Part shown: piece by piece, positions 2,499-53,506 of the stretch
Layout of the letters: the number at the start of each line of letters is the position of its first letter
How positions within the stretch are numbered: position 1 is the first letter of the stretch
Assembly (NCBI GenBank): GCA_018829205.1
Contig: JAHJUE010000005.1
Location: 1-64,000 of the forward strand
Direction: 5' to 3'
DNA: 64,000 bases
Origin: Bacteroidota bacterium
GTDB taxonomy: Bacteria > Bacteroidota > Ignavibacteria > Ignavibacteriales > Melioribacteraceae
The notes under the pieces: model-generated
Seen by the model: the letters and a program-made list of their open reading frames with translations, nothing else
Database searches by the model: none
Told to the model about the DNA's origin: nothing
Made by a program: the position numbers and the translations under genes

Positions 2499-4631
2499 CT
2501 ATTTTAATTCACGGGGGACAATTTTTAAAGTGCCGGCAAAAGTGTTTTCCATAAGCCAGTCCTGTACCGATATTCTTTCTTGAGAAACAACAGGATGATT
2601 TAGAACAAATTTTCCGTTAGGGAGTAAGATTCTTGCTTTCAGATTATCTTTGAGAGAATTATTCAGAATTTTTTCGATAATTATTTTTTTGCATTCGTTA
2701 TCTTCAATAGGGAATGTAGCTTCAACCCTTCTGTCTAAATTTCTTTGCATTAAATCAGCGCTGCTTAAATAAATGTCTTCAACGCCGTTATTGTAAAAAT
2801 AATAAATACGGCTGTGTTCAAGAAACCTTCCAATGATACTGCGCACGTAAATATTTTCACTTAATCCCTGAACTTGAGGAGTTAAACAGCATATACCTCT
2901 AATTATTAAATCAATTTTAACGCCGGCATTGGATGCTTCATAAAGCGCCGCAATAATTGTAGGGTCAACCAAAGAATTCATTTTAAAAATTAAATTAGCT
3001 TTTAACCCGGCTTTAGCGTTTTCAATTTCCCTTTCAATTAATCCCAAAATTTTATCTCTGGTATTAATAGGGGATACAAATAATTTTCTGAATTCCTTTT
3101 GATCCGAGTACCCAGTTAAGAAATTAAATATTTCAGAAACGTCCGCCGCAATTTTAGGATTAGTTGTGAAAAGACCCAAGTCCGTATATAGTTTGGCTGT
3201 TGAAGCATTATAGTTCCCGGTTCCAAGGTGAACATAACGTTTAACGCCGTCGGCTTCCTTTCTAACAACAAGTGTCATTTTTGAGTGTGTTTTTAAACCG
3301 ACCAAACCGTATACAACATGCACTCCTGCTTTTTCAAGTTCTCGTGCCCAGAAAATATTATTCTCTTCGTCAAATCGAGCTTTTAATTCTACTAGAACCG
3401 CGACTTGTTTTTTTCTTTCGGCAGCTTCAATTAAATATTTAATAATAGGCGAGTCGGAGCCAACGCGGTAAAGTGTCTGTTTAATCGCGAGCACGTCAGG
3501 ATCTTTTGAGGCTTCTTTTATAAAATTAATTACTGGAGCAAAAGAATCATACGGGTGATGTAGCAGAATATCGCGTTTTCTTATTGCCGAAAATATATTT
3601 TCCGCTTCTTCAAAATCAAGCGGTGTAACTGGATGAAAAGGTTTTTCCTTTAAATGGTGCAGGGGAAGATCATATAAACTTATAATCGGGCTTAAACCAA
3701 GGGGACCATCAATAACATGTATATCATTATTTGTAATTTGTAGGTTTTCTGTCAATGTATCGAGCATAAAATCGGGCATATTTTTATCAACTTCCAATCT
3801 TGTAACCGATCCGAATTTACGCTGTTTAATATTTTCTTCAATTACTTCAAGCAAATCATCTGCTTCGTCTTCCTGAATTTCAATATCGGTATTTCTTGTA
3901 ATTCTGAACGCATTGGCGTTCAATATTTCAACACCCGGGAACAGTTCATGCAGATTGTGTTTAATTAAATCTTCGAGCCAAATAAATCTTGCGCAGAATG
4001 TACCGTTACTAGAAATCTTTGAACCTGGAGTAACAATATTTTCGATTCGTAATAAACGCGGAAGAATGTTGGGTACTTTTACCCTGGCAAAATGTTTTTC
4101 GCCGTTTTGTTTTTTTATAAGAATCGCGAAACTCAAACTTAGATTTGAGATATACGGAAATGGTCTGCCCGGATCAAAGGCAAGCGGTGTAAGCACAGGG
4201 TAAATTTCACGGTTAAAATAATCTTTTAGATGTTCCTTTTCGTCATTATCAAGATTATCAATAGACGCGATAAAAACACTATTATCGGCAAGTTGAGGCA
4301 TTATAACTGATTTCCAAAATTCATATATCAAATTCAGCATGGGCTGAATTTCTTTTTCTATTTTTACAACCTGTTCAATAGGCGTGGATCCGTCAATAGA
4401 AGGTTCAATTACATTTGCTCTAATTTGTTCCTTAAGTCCGGAAATACGGATCATATAAAATTCGTCAAGATTGGAAAAAAATATTGAAAGGAATTTTATT
4501 TTATCAAGCAAAGGTAGATTGGGATTTAATGCTTCTTCAAGAACACGGCGGTTAAAATCAAGCCAGCTCATTTCTCTATTAAAGAAATTTTTTGGTTCAA
4601 AATATTTGCTTAAGTATTCTTTAGTTAACAT
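2499..4631 (-). CDS. ppk: Polyphosphate kinase 1
   Basis: 710 aa, typical length for PPK1, which reversibly makes polyphosphate from ATP. The N-terminal domain starts with NREMSWLDFNRRV (18-30) and is followed by the long-stalk domain. The first PLD-like catalytic domain carries the phosphorylated histidine in KTHSK (H449) and the HLGTGNYN motif (468-475). The second carries LEHSRIYYF (H606). All catalytic landmarks are present. It lies 61 bp downstream of the dCMP deaminase gene and directly upstream of the Cys/His protein and receptor genes. No exopolyphosphatase gene is present in the window. Confidence 0.97.
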   Translation of the reverse strand: MLTKEYLSKYFEPKNFFNREMSWLDFNRRVLEEALNPNLPLLDKIKFLSIFFSNLDEFYMIRISGLKEQIRANVIEPSIDGSTPIEQVVKIEKEIQPMLNLIYEFWKSVIMPQLADNSVFIASIDNLDNDEKEHLKDYFNREIYPVLTPLAFDPGRPFPYISNLSLSFAILIKKQNGEKHFARVKVPNILPRLLRIENIVTPGSKISSNGTFCARFIWLEDLIKHNLHELFPGVEILNANAFRITRNTDIEIQEDEADDLLEVIEENIKQRKFGSVTRLEVDKNMPDFMLDTLTENLQITNNDIHVIDGPLGLSPIISLYDLPLHHLKEKPFHPVTPLDFEEAENIFSAIRKRDILLHHPYDSFAPVINFIKEASKDPDVLAIKQTLYRVGSDSPIIKYLIEAAERKKQVAVLVELKARFDEENNIFWARELEKAGVHVVYGLVGLKTHSKMTLVVRKEADGVKRYVHLGTGNYNASTAKLYTDLGLFTTNPKIAADVSEIFNFLTGYSDQKEFRKLFVSPINTRDKILGLIEREIENAKAGLKANLIFKMNSLVDPTIIAALYEASNAGVKIDLIIRGICCLTPQVQGLSENIYVRSIIGRFLEHSRIYYFYNNGVEDIYLSSADLMQRNLDRRVEATFPIEDNECKKIIIEKILNNSLKDNLKARILLPNGKFVLNHPVVSQERISVQDWLMENTFAGTLKIVPRELK

Positions 4632-10475: not shown

Positions 10476-11780
10476 ATGGAAAATAAAAAAAACATAAACT
10501 TCCTTCCTAATAAACTTAGAAATTACATACCATTTGCAGCAATTTTTGTTTTAACCGCCGGATTGCTTTTTTACTTCAAAGAAAATAAACAAAGCGTAAA
10601 CGATTTTATAGAAAGCGGAAAGAATAATTTAATAAGTTTTTATACACAAAATCTTAAACCTATTTTATTTAAAACCGATATTTCGAACGAAGATGTTTTC
10701 AATTTCGCTTTATATCAGAATCTGCCCATTGATAAAAAAGAAAATAAAATATTGCAGATTGGTTACGACAAAACAAACAGCAGCGAATATTTTGAAATCA
10801 AACCTGCCGAAATAAATGAGAATACGCAAAATTATAAAAAGTTTTCAGAGTATCTGAAATTAGACGGTAAGCAGCAGCAGCAGCTCGATTCAGTTTTGGA
10901 ATCCTATAAAGATGCTTTATATACATCCGTACTTTATAACGATTATAATGCAATAGCCGTTGATTCAAAAATTACATTATTAAGAGAAGCAGTATTCGCT
11001 GATTTAATGGCCTTTGCTCAAAATATAAACAGTGAAGAATTTGAAAAAGCAGTTTCAAAAGATTACAAGTATAATACTTCAGAAATTAGAAACGCCATAA
11101 AAGATATTAAAGAATTTAAAGAAAATGATTTGAATGATTTCGTAATCTTTACCCCCGATTCAATTTTTAAAACTGAGTTTAGAATAGATAAGAAAAAATT
11201 TAAAAAAGAAATGAATGCCTTAAATTGGGATTTGAAGCGTGTCCGAAGCGAATTAAAAGATATTGATTTCAAAATTAAAATAAATCCGATGGTTGAGTTT
11301 GACAAAGAGAAATTATTGTCGGAAAATTCCGAAATAAAACCTGATTCGAATTATTATAAAGCATTTCTTTCAGAAGACTTTTTGATGAATAGGATGAAAG
11401 ATTTTGTTGATGTGAAAAAGTTAAGAAACAATATTGAAAAACTAAATTCCGATATTGAGAAAATTAAAATTAATGTTAATACTTCCCATGCGGATAAATC
11501 TTTTATTGAGTTGAAGAATATAATCAATGCCGGATCTAAAGGAGAATTGGTTTTTGATCTTAATTTAAAAGGCTTAGACAGTTTAATTGAAAAATCAGTT
11601 AACAGATTTGAAATGGAAGATATTAAGGATTGGGAAGAGTTCGGATTTAAGATGGATTCACTTGCGAATTCCTTACAGTTTAATTTTAGTGATTCGGTGC
11701 ATGTAAAATTCGATAAGGAAAAACTTAAGAAGGAAATTCAAAAAGCAAAGAGTGAATTAAATAGAAGAAAGAATAATTAA
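10476..11780 (+). CDS. Single-pass membrane protein with long coiled-coil region, coupled to the sigma gene
   Basis: 434 aa, no family recognised. About 18 residues face the cytoplasm, one transmembrane helix spans about 19-36, and the rest should lie outside the inner membrane. That part is rich in Lys, Glu, Asp and Asn, with predicted helices and coiled coils (about 190-225, 235-275, 310-345, 410-432). A segment near 130-170 (LDGKQQQQLDSVLESY) loosely recalls the helical hook of CpxP/LTXXQ-type periplasmic proteins. Its ATG follows the sigma stop codon with no gap, so it may sense an envelope signal or restrain the sigma factor. The cytoplasmic tail looks too short for a normal anti-sigma domain. 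That role is inference. Confidence 0.75.
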   Translation: MENKKNINFLPNKLRNYIPFAAIFVLTAGLLFYFKENKQSVNDFIESGKNNLISFYTQNLKPILFKTDISNEDVFNFALYQNLPIDKKENKILQIGYDKTNSSEYFEIKPAEINENTQNYKKFSEYLKLDGKQQQQLDSVLESYKDALYTSVLYNDYNAIAVDSKITLLREAVFADLMAFAQNINSEEFEKAVSKDYKYNTSEIRNAIKDIKEFKENDLNDFVIFTPDSIFKTEFRIDKKKFKKEMNALNWDLKRVRSELKDIDFKIKINPMVEFDKEKLLSENSEIKPDSNYYKAFLSEDFLMNRMKDFVDVKKLRNNIEKLNSDIEKIKINVNTSHADKSFIELKNIINAGSKGELVFDLNLKGLDSLIEKSVNRFEMEDIKDWEEFGFKMDSLANSLQFNFSDSVHVKFDKEKLKKEIQKAKSELNRRKNN

Positions 11781-11885
11781 ATTTTGAAACCCGCCTTTTA
11801 AATTTTTTTATTCTAACTGCAAAAGCTTTTCTTTACAATAATACTATTTTGATTTAATTTTACTTCATAATTTAAATTATTATAA

Positions 11886-13958
11886 ATGGCAGCCACCATT
11901 AAAAAGATCAATAATACCAAAAAACTTGAAAACACAATTCTGGCGTCAATTGTGTTATTTGTTTTCAAATTAGTATTCTTTTCCAGCGATTCATTAATTA
12001 TAAATATTATAAATGAATTTGTTATTCTCGGTACAATTTACTTATGGATCGATTATGTAATAGGATTTGTAAAACCGAGAACATCAACTCCTCTTTCTAT
12101 AATTCTAAATACGGGAATTCTTACCGCGATAATATTTTTTATACTTTCTGTTTCTACATCCTTTTTAAGTACCGAAATATTTACAAACGGTGAAACAGAT
12201 TATATTTATATAATATTCGCTAACCTACTGATTTTTGTTTTTATCGGATGTGTCACTTATATATTCGCTGCATTTAAAGAACTTTCTTTTTACCGGCAAA
12301 AAACAGACAAAAGCAAATATTTTAATACACTCGTTTTTTTTATAATTATTACCGGATTATCAAAATCAATTACTAAAATTGATCCTACTTTGGATTTTAT
12401 TGAAAACGCTTTTTTTGTCGTTACTATTTTATTAATAGGTATTAATTCAATACGTGTTTCGTGGATTGCCTTCCTAATTAAAAAACAAAAAGTTTATTTA
12501 CTTGTTATCGCAATAGTTTTGTCAATATTATTCGGATTTAATTATTCATTAACGATTGGCGACGGGGTAATTAATCAGCTGTTATATGCTTATTCACCGG
12601 GATTGGTAGCATTCTTGGGCTTGCTGATGATATACGGCTCAATTTATTTTGGTGTAATATTTTTCACTACATTGTTCCATCTTCCTACCGCTGAAGCATT
12701 TGACAGGAAAGCCGAAGAAGTTTCTTCTTTGATGGATCTTAGTAAACTAATTACTCAGGTCTTTGATTTTAAGGAATTAGCGGACACAGTAACATCAGTA
12801 ACAACAAAGGTATGTAATTCAGATTCGGCTTGGCTTGTAACAAAAAGAGAAGATGACTTTGAATTAAGTTCGGTAAGTAATATCGGATTTGTAGAAGCGG
12901 ATAAAATTACTACTTCTCTGCTTGAACATCATTCATATAATCTAAATGAAGTTGTAACAATTAACGACAGTCCGATAAAAATTAGAATAAAAAACGACGT
13001 ACGCACTTTTAATTTTAAAGCTATTGCAGTAGCGCCGTTAAAAGTGCATAACAAAAACAGCGGATTTTTATTTGTTGCAAGGAAAAGAGATTTCTCCTTT
13101 GATGAAGATGATATTAAAGCTATCTCGGCTTTTGCCGATTATGCGGCAGTTGCTTTGGAGAATGCTAAACTTATTGAAGAATCTCTTGAAAAGGAAAGAC
13201 TTGAAAAAGAGCTTGACGTTGCGCGCGAAGTACAGTATAAAATTCTGCCTGACGGTGTGCCTAAAATTGAGAACCTTGAAATTTCAGCATTGTTTGTTCC
13301 TGCTTTTGAAGTAGGTGGTGATTATTATGATTTTTTTGAAATATCTGATAATAAACTTGGATTTGTAATTGCCGATGTTTCAGGTAAAGGTATTCAAGCT
13401 GCTTTTATTATGGCCGAAATTAAAGGCGTGTTTGAATCACTGTCAAGAATAATAACAAGCCCTTCCGAATTATTAATAAAAGTAAATGAAATTCTCATTA
13501 AAAGTTTGGAAAAGAAAAGTTTTGTAACGGCTGTTTACGGAGTTATTGATACAAAATCCGGCAAAGTAAATTTCTCAAGAGCAGGTCACAATTCGATTAT
13601 GTTATGCAGCAAGGGCAAGGTTGAACATTTTACCCCTCCTGGTATGGGATTAGGTTTGGATAGTGGTGATAAATTCCGGCTTGTAATAAAAGAAATGGAA
13701 ATTCAATTGGATAATAACGATATTATCATTCTTTATACCGATGGTATTCCTGAATCGCAAAATTCAAAGTACGAAGAGTTCGGATATAAAAAATTTGAGA
13801 AAATTTTAATAGAAAATTGTGATGAAGAAGTGAACAAAATATCAAACGAAATTATGAAAGCTGTTACAATTTATTCACAGGATAAATCACAGCACGACGA
13901 TATTACTCTTGTAATATTTAAATGGAAATTTAATAACAAAAAATCTGGAGAGGTTTAA
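11886..13958 (+). CDS. Membrane PP2C phosphatase, RsbU/SpoIIE type, with GAF sensor domain
   Basis: 690 aa. The N-terminal third (about 17-275) has about eight hydrophobic segments. A GAF-like domain follows at about 290-425 and a coiled linker (EKERLEKELDVAREVQ) at about 428-450. The C-terminal SpoIIE-type PP2C domain (about 460-685) keeps VGGDYYD, IADVSGKG, RAGHNS, YTDGIPES and HDDITLV, so the metal-binding Asp residues are intact. It should dephosphorylate an STAS antagonist, and the next gene encodes one, overlapping the stop codon by one base. The membrane half probably senses a lipid, a small molecule or membrane state. Confidence 0.93.
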   Translation: MAATIKKINNTKKLENTILASIVLFVFKLVFFSSDSLIINIINEFVILGTIYLWIDYVIGFVKPRTSTPLSIILNTGILTAIIFFILSVSTSFLSTEIFTNGETDYIYIIFANLLIFVFIGCVTYIFAAFKELSFYRQKTDKSKYFNTLVFFIIITGLSKSITKIDPTLDFIENAFFVVTILLIGINSIRVSWIAFLIKKQKVYLLVIAIVLSILFGFNYSLTIGDGVINQLLYAYSPGLVAFLGLLMIYGSIYFGVIFFTTLFHLPTAEAFDRKAEEVSSLMDLSKLITQVFDFKELADTVTSVTTKVCNSDSAWLVTKREDDFELSSVSNIGFVEADKITTSLLEHHSYNLNEVVTINDSPIKIRIKNDVRTFNFKAIAVAPLKVHNKNSGFLFVARKRDFSFDEDDIKAISAFADYAAVALENAKLIEESLEKERLEKELDVAREVQYKILPDGVPKIENLEISALFVPAFEVGGDYYDFFEISDNKLGFVIADVSGKGIQAAFIMAEIKGVFESLSRIITSPSELLIKVNEILIKSLEKKSFVTAVYGVIDTKSGKVNFSRAGHNSIMLCSKGKVEHFTPPGMGLGLDSGDKFRLVIKEMEIQLDNNDIIILYTDGIPESQNSKYEEFGYKKFEKILIENCDEEVNKISNEIMKAVTIYSQDKSQHDDITLVIFKWKFNNKKSGEV

Positions 13959-52157: not shown

Positions 52158-52547
52158 TTAATTTAATACGTTTTCGTCAACGCCAATTAATTTTATGTTT
52201 TTTTTCACTGATTCTTCGAGTCCGGAGACAACAAGTCGGGCTTTATTAAGCAATGTTCTTGGCACTCCAACGAATAAAGTAACATGTTTGTTTGAGTATT
52301 TTGTTTGTCTGGTTGCCAGGTAATTTAATTTAGAATATACCTGAGGATTATTTAATTCTTCTTCAGACAAAACAATACCAAGGGCAAATTTCTTTTTTAA
52401 TTTTCCCACTGCATCAATTTCATATTGTCCAATTGGTTTGGGTTCAGGTAAAAATTTCCCGTATTTTCTGCTTACGGTTAAATAACCATTTTTCCAGAAA
52501 TGCGTAATTAAATCATCTACTCTTGCCTGATATCTATTGTCAGCCAT
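52158..52547 (-). CDS. Small protein with a possible degenerate nuclease-like fold, last gene of the lexA operon
   Basis: 129 aa with the start placed at ATG 52547, which has AAAAGGTG at the right distance. A GTG nine bases earlier lies inside that site and is rejected. No family recognised. The segment IGQYEIDAVGKLKKKFALGIVL resembles the strand order of PD-(D/E)xK nucleases: the first Asp (D45) is kept, but the following ExK is replaced by GIV, so an active site looks incomplete. A helix and a strand (VTLFVGVP) follow as in that fold. It lies 12 bp after the mini-WYL-like gene and is probably co-regulated by LexA. The fold assignment is weak. Confidence 0.65.
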   Translation of the reverse strand: MADNRYQARVDDLITHFWKNGYLTVSRKYGKFLPEPKPIGQYEIDAVGKLKKKFALGIVLSEEELNNPQVYSKLNYLATRQTKYSNKHVTLFVGVPRTLLNKARLVVSGLEESVKKNIKLIGVDENVLN

Positions 52548-52559
52548 AAAAATCACCTT

Positions 52560-52805
52560 TTAATTTAAAGAAGCTAAAATCGGGATTATAGGAGAAAATT
52601 TATTATTTAATACTTTTATGTTGAAAATTCTTTCATATTCAAACATTTTGACTTCGTTTGAATTATTAACTCTGCCGAAGATTACTTTTTTACCTGTTTT
52701 ATTTTTTGCTATATAATAAGGTTCCAATTCAATTTCATTTAATCCGTATAAGAACCTTAATCTATTTCTACTGCTAATTGCTGTGTTAAAGATATCTGTT
52801 TTCAT
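52560..52805 (-). CDS. 81-aa protein resembling a minimal WYL domain
   Basis: 81 aa. NTAISSRNRLRFLYGL, EIELEPYYIAK, GKKVIFGR and MFEYERIFNIKVL follow the order of strands in WYL domains (aromatic-Tyr, EP-x-x-Y/L, then F-x-x-x-R-I). WYL domains normally bind nucleic acid or a nucleotide-like ligand and sit in larger regulators with a helix-turn-helix; here there is no DNA-binding part. It lies 11 bp after lexA and 12 bp before the next small gene. If the match holds, it may pair with LexA or with the downstream protein. Function unknown. Confidence 0.65.
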   Translation of the reverse strand: MKTDIFNTAISSRNRLRFLYGLNEIELEPYYIAKNKTGKKVIFGRVNNSNEVKMFEYERIFNIKVLNNKFSPIIPILASLN

Positions 52806-52816
52806 TTTTAAGCCTC

Positions 52817-53452
52817 TTAATTGTACCAGCGAAATACGCCAATTACTTTACCTACTATCGAAAAATCCTCTCTTTTATTTAGAGAGATTATCGGATATTT
52901 ATCATTTTCGGGAATTAGTTCCATCTCGTTGTTTCTTTTACCAAGTCTTTTTAAAGTAGCTTCATCACCTAAAAGAGCAACAATGATTTCTCCGTTATTT
53001 GCATCGCTTTGTGGATTTATAACAACCGTATCTCCTTCAAATATTCCGGCGTTTATCATACTGTCGCCCTTTACTTTTAACCCGAAACAGCCTTTAAATT
53101 TACTTATTAGACCGGAATCAAGGGTTAATGTTCCCTCAATATTTTCCTGAGCTAGAATTGGAAATCCTGCGGCAACACGGCCGACGACAGGAATTTCTAC
53201 TGAATTATCATGCGAGATTTTTGAAACCATACTATTATTATTAATAACAGATAATGTACGGCTGAAGTTGCTTTCGGAATTTAAACAGCCTTTTTTAATC
53301 AAAGCGTCAATATGGCGTTTTACTCCGAATGTACTTGCAATTCCAAAGTGTTTGCCTATTTCGCGATAGGATGGAGAATAATTATTTAGTTCTATAAACT
53401 CCTGAATGAAGTTTAAGATATCCTGTTGTTTTTCCGTTAATTCATTTTTCAT
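52817..53452 (-). CDS. lexA: LexA repressor
   Basis: 211 aa. The winged helix-turn-helix (about 1-70) is followed by the self-cleaving peptidase domain. Scissile bond A95-G96 in GRVAAGFP, nucleophile S131 in GDSMINAG and general base K168 in TLKRLGKR are all present. The spacing 96-131-168 is the same as in E. coli LexA (85-119-156 numbering), so RecA-stimulated cleavage should work. The promoter has two palindromic sites, consistent with autoregulation. The recognition helix (about 27-45) has SPSYREIGKHFGI. Confidence 0.97.
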   Translation of the reverse strand: MKNELTEKQQDILNFIQEFIELNNYSPSYREIGKHFGIASTFGVKRHIDALIKKGCLNSESNFSRTLSVINNNSMVSKISHDNSVEIPVVGRVAAGFPILAQENIEGTLTLDSGLISKFKGCFGLKVKGDSMINAGIFEGDTVVINPQSDANNGEIIVALLGDEATLKRLGKRNNEMELIPENDKYPIISLNKREDFSIVGKVIGVFRWYN

Positions 53453-53455
53453 ATC

Positions 53456-53475
53456 TAGTGCTCAATTGTTCACTA
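53456..53475. promoter_or_regulatory. Candidate LexA operator 1 (downstream of the -10)
   Basis: Palindrome TAGTG-N10-CACTA with central CAATTG lies between the -10 box and the lexA start codon, 4 bp from the ATG. It matches operator 2 in the GTG-N10-CAC frame. Assigned to LexA by position and symmetry. Confidence 0.65.
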
Positions 53476-53477
53476 CA

Positions 53478-53506
53478 AATATAGTGTACATGTGTGCACT
53501 TGTCAA
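53478..53506 (-). promoter_or_regulatory. lexA promoter, TTGACA-17-TATATT
   Basis: On the minus strand TTGACA (53501-53506) is separated by exactly 17 bases from TATATT (53478-53483). The -10 reads TATATTTG, which also fits the Bacteroidota-type TAnnTTTG element, with TTG 20 bases upstream of it. Operator 2 fills the spacer and operator 1 lies at the start site, so a repressor bound there would block RNA polymerase. Confidence 0.8.
53483..53500. promoter_or_regulatory. Candidate LexA operator 2 (in the promoter spacer)
   Basis: AGTGTACATGTGTGCACT contains the palindrome GTG-N10-CAC with central CATGTG. It lies between the -35 and -10 boxes, centred 26 bp from the first site. Confidence 0.6.

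Follow-up and report, generated by a model that had tools for sequence, protein, structure and literature searches.

Predicted LexA operators at lexA1 and at one half of a split dnaE2 in the Ignavibacteriales

Which regulator acts on the two palindromes that occupy the promoter of a lexA gene in a Melioribacteraceae genome, and which other genes answer to the same site, are the questions raised by this locus. The window, by which the whole analysed stretch of 64,000 nucleotides is meant, carries the following features around this promoter:

53501..53506, minus strand: -35 element TTGACA, exact match
53478..53483, minus strand: -10 element TATATT, exact match, with a 17-bp spacer to the -35 element
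53482..53501, minus strand: predicted LexA1 operator A (AAGTGCACACATGTACACTA), filling the -35/-10 spacer; matrix score 25.1
53456..53475, minus strand: predicted LexA1 operator B (TAGTGAACAATTGAGCACTA), in the presumed transcription start region, 3 bp from the ATG; matrix score 27.2
52817..53452, minus strand: lexA1, canonical LexA of 211 aa; TIGR00498 199 bits (cut-off 111), Pfam LexA_DNA_bind and Peptidase_S24
52560..52805, minus strand: 81-aa protein, weakly WYL-like, directly after lexA1; the same neighbour occurs in six other lexA1 loci compared
52158..52556, minus strand: 129-132-aa protein, third gene of the presumed lexA1 operon

The first-pass annotation had described a near-perfect TTGACA-17-TATATT promoter of lexA at 53456-53506, with one palindrome in the spacer and the other over the start region, 26 bp apart, and this description was borne out: both elements and the spacer are exact, the positions are right, and the TIGR00498 score and Pfam domains identify the gene behind the promoter as a canonical LexA. 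It had also called the palindromes overlapping, but both overlap the promoter and not one another, each being 20 bp long with 6 bp between the 20-mers.

LexA1 aligns with solved LexA chains, including 7b5g, and the self-cleavage residues A95 and G96 together with S131 and K168 are invariant in an alignment of 15 rows, while the recognition helix reads STFGV[KQ]RH in 16 of 18 LexA1 rows. Its closest named relatives come from a Melioribacteraceae MAG, an Ignavibacteria, an Ignavibacteriales MAG and two MAGs labelled Bacteroidetes. In an 80-row LexA tree, which drew on 41 of the 75 loci L163-L237 (all up to L172 and every second one above, with one lost to the length or stop filter), LexA1 of the order forms one group (98/96) and a second paralogue, LexA2, forms another (100/100). 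Two small conserved genes lie 3' of lexA1 (window positions 52158-52805); the similarity of the 81-aa protein to Pfam WYL, seen in 5 of 7 members with a best E of 0.0072, stays below the cut-off, and the 129-132-aa protein has no convincing Pfam match.

The pattern TAGTG-N10-CACTA is matched exactly by palindrome B and with one mismatch by palindrome A. When two mismatches were allowed, 17 places were found in the window against 14.1 expected, which is chance level, and this count was therefore replaced by a position matrix from other genomes and by counts across genomes. The matrix was built from 66 sites of other genomes, leaving out the source genome, L027, L036 and L162; scanned over the window, it placed A and B at the scores given above and the next best place at 9.2, with about 0.1 hits of at least 12 expected per 64 kb. 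In the whole 4.59-Mb source genome, the exact pattern occurs in two places, namely palindrome B and the start of a dnaE2 piece, and three strong LexA1 sites were found, two at lexA1 and one before that dnaE2 piece. In all, 42 places with at most one mismatch to either of two patterns (36 and 9, with 3 shared) were matrix-scored; the same filter would recover 68 of the 73 boxes at lexA and 29 of the 30 at dnaE2 C-halves, so that a weak site of the source genome may have escaped. Beyond the three strong sites, the best of these places scored 15.4, in a gene for a glycyl-radical enzyme, and 12.6, in one for a MatE transporter, and both were set aside because they fall within genes.

Across the order, the arrangement is strongly conserved: two sites 26 bp apart were found in 35 of 37 distinct lexA1 promoters (50 minus 13 duplicates; best pair sought at separations of 17-44 bp), the exceptions being L027, where the first box is shorter, and L036. 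The pattern AGTGNNCANNNGNNCACT occurs without mismatch in 49 of 58 genomes; reversed, it turns up in 10 of them, with 1 to 3 hits per genome. The nine genomes that lack the exact pattern are G009, where no site was found and the sole LexA-like hit is weak, and eight others. Since lexA promoters are homologous, such resemblance might in principle be inherited promoter sequence with no regulatory role; this reading is extremely improbable, as GTG..C....G..CAC stays constant in these promoters while the inner positions vary, the same site stands at unrelated genes in other places, and the reversed control falls far behind. The recurrence of the site at lexA1 across the order and at split dnaE2 and Y-family genes instead argues that the palindrome is very probably the LexA1 site of this lineage. 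In one case, L162, a changed recognition helix goes together with CTG for GTG in three of the four half-sites, whereas in L032 the helix is changed and yet the GTG sites are kept, which is one case against such co-change. Outside the order, a MAG labelled Nitrospirae (L166) carries GTGTACAAATGTACAC directly before a lexA match. Within the class, two loci of family f11 (L039, L045) have GTGCTTTNATGAGCAC palindromes upstream of lexA, and the LexA there also has an STFGV helix.

The C-half of a split dnaE2 is the main other predicted target of LexA1 besides lexA1 itself. The relevant features of the source genome are:

C19:69998-70017: predicted LexA1 site at the beginning of a gene of 564 aa, an exact TAGTG-N10-CACTA
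L046:10009-11703 (plus strand) and 11766-13445 (minus strand), on G000:C19 of the source genome: the two dnaE2 halves, convergent genes

Pfam assigns to the 564-aa gene the fingers and the helix-hairpin-helix region of DNA polymerase III alpha, its OB-fold match being weak, and to a separate 559-aa gene on the opposite strand the PHP and catalytic (NTPase) parts. Against the solved chain 3e0d, the halves match up to residue 638 and then 644-1101, i.e., consecutive parts of one alpha subunit, and the break in dnaE2 thus falls close to the border of palm and fingers. Both the PDxDxDF motif and the KxD region further on, which we take to hold the DnaE catalytic aspartates, lie in the first (N-half) gene. 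The N-half was found in 40 of 58 genomes, its open frame measuring 530-582 aa, the C-half likewise in 40, and both in 38, where they are variously adjacent, divergent or far apart. C-half frames measure about 549-597 aa, except in G132 (510, at a contig end), G150 (480) and G064 (two fragments). Frames in the families f3 and f11 of the class are mostly 1037-1111 aa long, and four f12 genomes have C-half frames of 587-606 aa. An assembly fault was ruled out as the cause of the split, the halves being separate in the single-contig genomes G108, G113, G154, G156 and G157, and no intein was found in a Pfam scan of the source-genome halves.

In all 30 loci scanned (30 of the 40 genomes were scanned for each half), the C-half start has a LexA1-type site no more than about 105 nt away, and these loci have a single site near the start codon. 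Among the other 10 C-halves, which were checked separately, the site was found in seven (G155, G132, G064, G183, G157, G172 and G150), which gives 37 of 40 genomes. As for the remaining three, no site was found at the C-half of G148, in G140 the C-half is immediately preceded by a LexA2 site, and that of G159 lies inside a lexA2-headed cluster. A previous study counted a single Ignavibacteria genome as having both DnaE1 and DnaE2, and reconstructed fragmented sequences where intact relatives existed (PMC3919608); the available portion of that paper describes no dnaE2 split of this kind.

Further AGTGNNCANNNGNNCACT sites were surveyed in 34 stretches (L124-L157), of which 20 lie at a C-half start, six at lexA1, three at Y-family polymerase genes and five elsewhere; these places were chosen for carrying the site, so that the figures are a tally of targets and not a test. 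The Y-family genes comprise L127:1737-3068 and L144:1865-3139, encoding polymerases of 443 and 424 aa with the LexA1 site directly upstream, and L153:1984-3138, a dinB with an upstream site, while none was found at the source-genome dinB. The five remaining sites are at genes without clear SOS link or where no gene was found: the site in L134 stands at a protein of the DinB superfamily, not a polymerase, and the other four are in L148, L149, L156 and L157.

The first-pass annotation had proposed scanning for the site before recA, dnaE2, imuB and uvr genes. Its expectation held for dnaE2, as regards the C-half, and for Y-family genes in some genomes, but failed for recA and for the two uvrA genes of the source genome. 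The recA gene is present in 57 of the 58 genomes, the source genome included, and neither the LexA1 site nor the LexA2 site was found in any of 31 upstream regions of 300 nt (31 of the 57 recA genomes); moreover, the recA loci, which like the lexA2 and N-half loci were not selected by this site, hold no LexA1 hit of at least 16 in 118 kb. In the loci fetched from the source genome, neither of the uvrA genes nor the second Y-family gene showed a hit of at least 10. These findings suggest a very small LexA1 regulon from which recA is left out, and recA would accordingly not be a direct LexA1 target.

How the two palindromes might work can be pictured from their placement. A LexA1 dimer on A would occupy the DNA between the -35 and -10 elements and a dimer on B would cover the start region, and both would keep RNA polymerase off, so that lexA1 would repress itself. 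The 26-bp distance is about 2.5 turns, which would put the dimers on opposite faces of the helix; the lexA boxes of E. coli are about two turns apart. An alternative, to which we give a minor chance, is that only A works, with B partly shaped by translation (a ribosome-binding site or leader) and the 26-bp spacing set by promoter geometry. The symmetry of B is indeed lower (4.6 versus 5.1 of 8 pairs for A), and a Shine-Dalgarno-like string occurs in 8 of 36 B boxes versus none of 37 A boxes, which may itself explain the lower symmetry of B; however, the GTG and CAC of B are nearly invariant, and the lone site of the C-half loci stands near the start codon as well.

We regard A and B together as predicted operators for LexA1, and it is highly probable that they serve self-repression and the damage-dependent release of a few targets, mainly the dnaE2 C-half. 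In the LexA family, RecA on single-stranded DNA triggers self-cleavage, and the same is expected of LexA1. Cleavage would free lexA1 and probably the two small genes behind it, and also the C-half (fingers, helix-hairpin-helix and OB fold) of the split DnaE2 and, in some genomes, Y-family polymerases. With the presumed catalytic aspartates in the N-half, release of the C-half would control assembly of the error-prone polymerase. The polymerase is carried by two genes, the finger half being a conserved SOS-type target.

The site had also been held to differ from the E. coli, Bacillus and alphaproteobacterial boxes, and only part of this stood. None of the E. coli, Bacillus, alphaproteobacterial, Fibrobacter, Verrucomicrobia and Bacteroidetes patterns occurs in the lexA1 promoter, but TGNNC-N4-GNNCA is found there twice, and this register is that of the Gram-positive and Fibrobacter boxes. 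The Gram-positive LexA box is CGAAC-N4-GTTCG, which has the same register, NGNNC-N4-GNNCN, as the LexA1 site, although GAAC-N4-GTTC is absent from the promoter. The Fibrobacter LexA box is TGCNC-N4-GTGCA; it has the 14-bp register in common with the LexA1 site, and in three Fibrobacter promoters read from sequence (L163-L165) a palindrome lies in the same TTGACA/TATATT spacer as here. Fibrobacter LexA is 45-46% identical to LexA1, but its outer triplet is ATG with one operator seen, compared with GTG and two operators here, its recognition helix is STNGVRSI instead of STFGVKRH, and the pattern TGCNC-N4-GNGCA is absent from the lexA1 promoter. In the 80-row tree, the place of Fibrobacter beside LexA1 is unsettled, and sister-group status is not shown. 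The predicted LexA1 site is therefore a variant of the boxes with the Gram-positive/Fibrobacter register, to which this register ties it, and not a new kind of box.

The non-canonical LexA proteins of Bacteroidetes are S24 repressors of SOS genes with DinB and DnaE among their targets and with the motifs CTAA-N5-TTAG and GGA-N5-TCC (PMC8565304). An S24 repressor with DinB and DnaE targets is likewise predicted here, but its DNA-binding domain is canonical and both motifs are absent from the promoter. In a term search of PMC8565304, neither Ignavibacteria nor Chlorobi nor Fibrobacter was found. Searches of the open-access literature showed no paper that treats a LexA site or a split DnaE2 of this lineage, and a predicted LexA operator is thus supplied for a lineage that lacks one in the literature searched.

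The LexA1 site had been suggested to define the LexA site of the lineage; it does recur at lexA1 and SOS-type genes, but it is not the only one, as LexA2 has its own predicted site, which is distinct. The second LexA is represented by:

C19:79863-80480, source genome: lexA2, TIGR00498 154 bits, 36% identical to LexA1
L047:2361-2981, minus strand: second lexA, with the operator-like site ACCATACANNTGTATGGT at 3029-3048

Sites resembling ACCATACANNTGTATGGT lie upstream of lexA2 in 12 of 13 loci, the thirteenth, L054, being cut by a contig end. The core CCATACANNTGTATGG occurs without mismatch in 32 of 58 genomes, with none for the reversed control. By lists compared by hand, it is present in 32 of the 34 genomes with lexA2 (not G157 and G181) versus 0 of 24 without, where presence means at least 50% identity and the motif was first read off some of the same genomes, so that the test is not fully independent. 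In 31 of these 32 genomes a site stands no more than about 200 bp from lexA2, while in G103 it is on another contig. The two site types have the inner CA-NN-TG in common and differ in the outer triplet, GTG versus CCA, and for the recognition helix of LexA2, 12 of 13 rows have NR[AS]TV and the remaining one has SRATV. The two paralogues, with their different outer triplets, offer a natural comparison for studying how LexA recognises DNA.

The presence of two paralogues in many of the same genomes, together with the inner CA-NN-TG common to both site types, raises the reading that another regulator which also acts on the dnaE2 C-half, such as LexA2, targets palindromes A and B and that LexA1 does not bind them. 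This is very unlikely: sites of the LexA1 type are also present where LexA2 is absent (e.g., in G019, G029, G084, G091 and G165), the site of LexA2 goes with the presence of lexA2 as counted above, and no LexA1 hit of at least 16 was found in 144 kb of lexA2 loci. LexA1 is accordingly kept as the likely ligand of A and B.

The surroundings of the N-half differ from those of the C-half. In 136 kb of N-half loci, eight LexA1 hits of at least 16 were found. Among the 30 loci, a LexA1 site lies within 200 nt in one and 815-1236 nt upstream in six, and in all seven the C-half starts, by coordinates, on the far side of the same site; the eighth hit, in L281, stands beside the C-half of that genome, and no site was found within 1.5 kb of the other scanned N-halves. 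A dinB-like gene lies upstream of the N-half on the same strand in 15 of 30 loci, with gaps of 8 to 919 nt. In G150, G151, G152, G159 and G162, a LexA2 site, lexA2, a DUF72 gene, dinB and the N-half follow one another on one strand, no gap exceeding about 340 nt. The five lexA2-DUF72-dinB-N-half loci compared (L334 and L339-L342) were chosen because site and N-half are close together, and only in L334 is dnaE2 complete within the cluster. The C-half lies elsewhere with a LexA1 site in G150, G151 and G152 (scores 26.1, 26.1 and 16.3), follows the N-half in G159, and was not found in G162. In G172 and G183, both halves are in tandem behind one LexA1 site. In the source genome, the N-half follows lexA2 on the same strand, but at a distance of about 7 kb and with other genes in between, so that common transcription of the two is uncertain.

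Judged from the three genomes with the N-half in a lexA2-headed cluster, the two dnaE2 halves may answer to different LexA proteins. If the halves are under two repressors with different operators, a working polymerase would need both to be cleaved. In part of the order, this could amount to a two-key lock, with the catalytic half in the LexA2 cluster and the finger half under LexA1, so that the mutagenic polymerase would arise only when both repressors are cleaved. Such a lock is a tentative and rather doubtful idea: it builds on the split, the two site types and the gene placement in G150, G151 and G152, and assembly of the halves and the need for both keys are putative.

A partly comparable arrangement is reported for Pseudomonas putida, which has LexA1 and LexA2 and a lexA2-imuA-imuB-imuC mutagenesis operon (PMC3901139). 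Many genomes of the Ignavibacteriales likewise have two LexA proteins, and in the five loci compared lexA2 heads a cluster with a Y-family polymerase and the N-half of dnaE2, the C-half being included only in L334; in contrast to P. putida, a DUF72 gene stands at the position of imuA, and dnaE2 is split, its halves lying under different predicted LexA sites in some genomes. In addition, a third LexA2-type site of G140 was observed at G140:C1:1668946-1668961.
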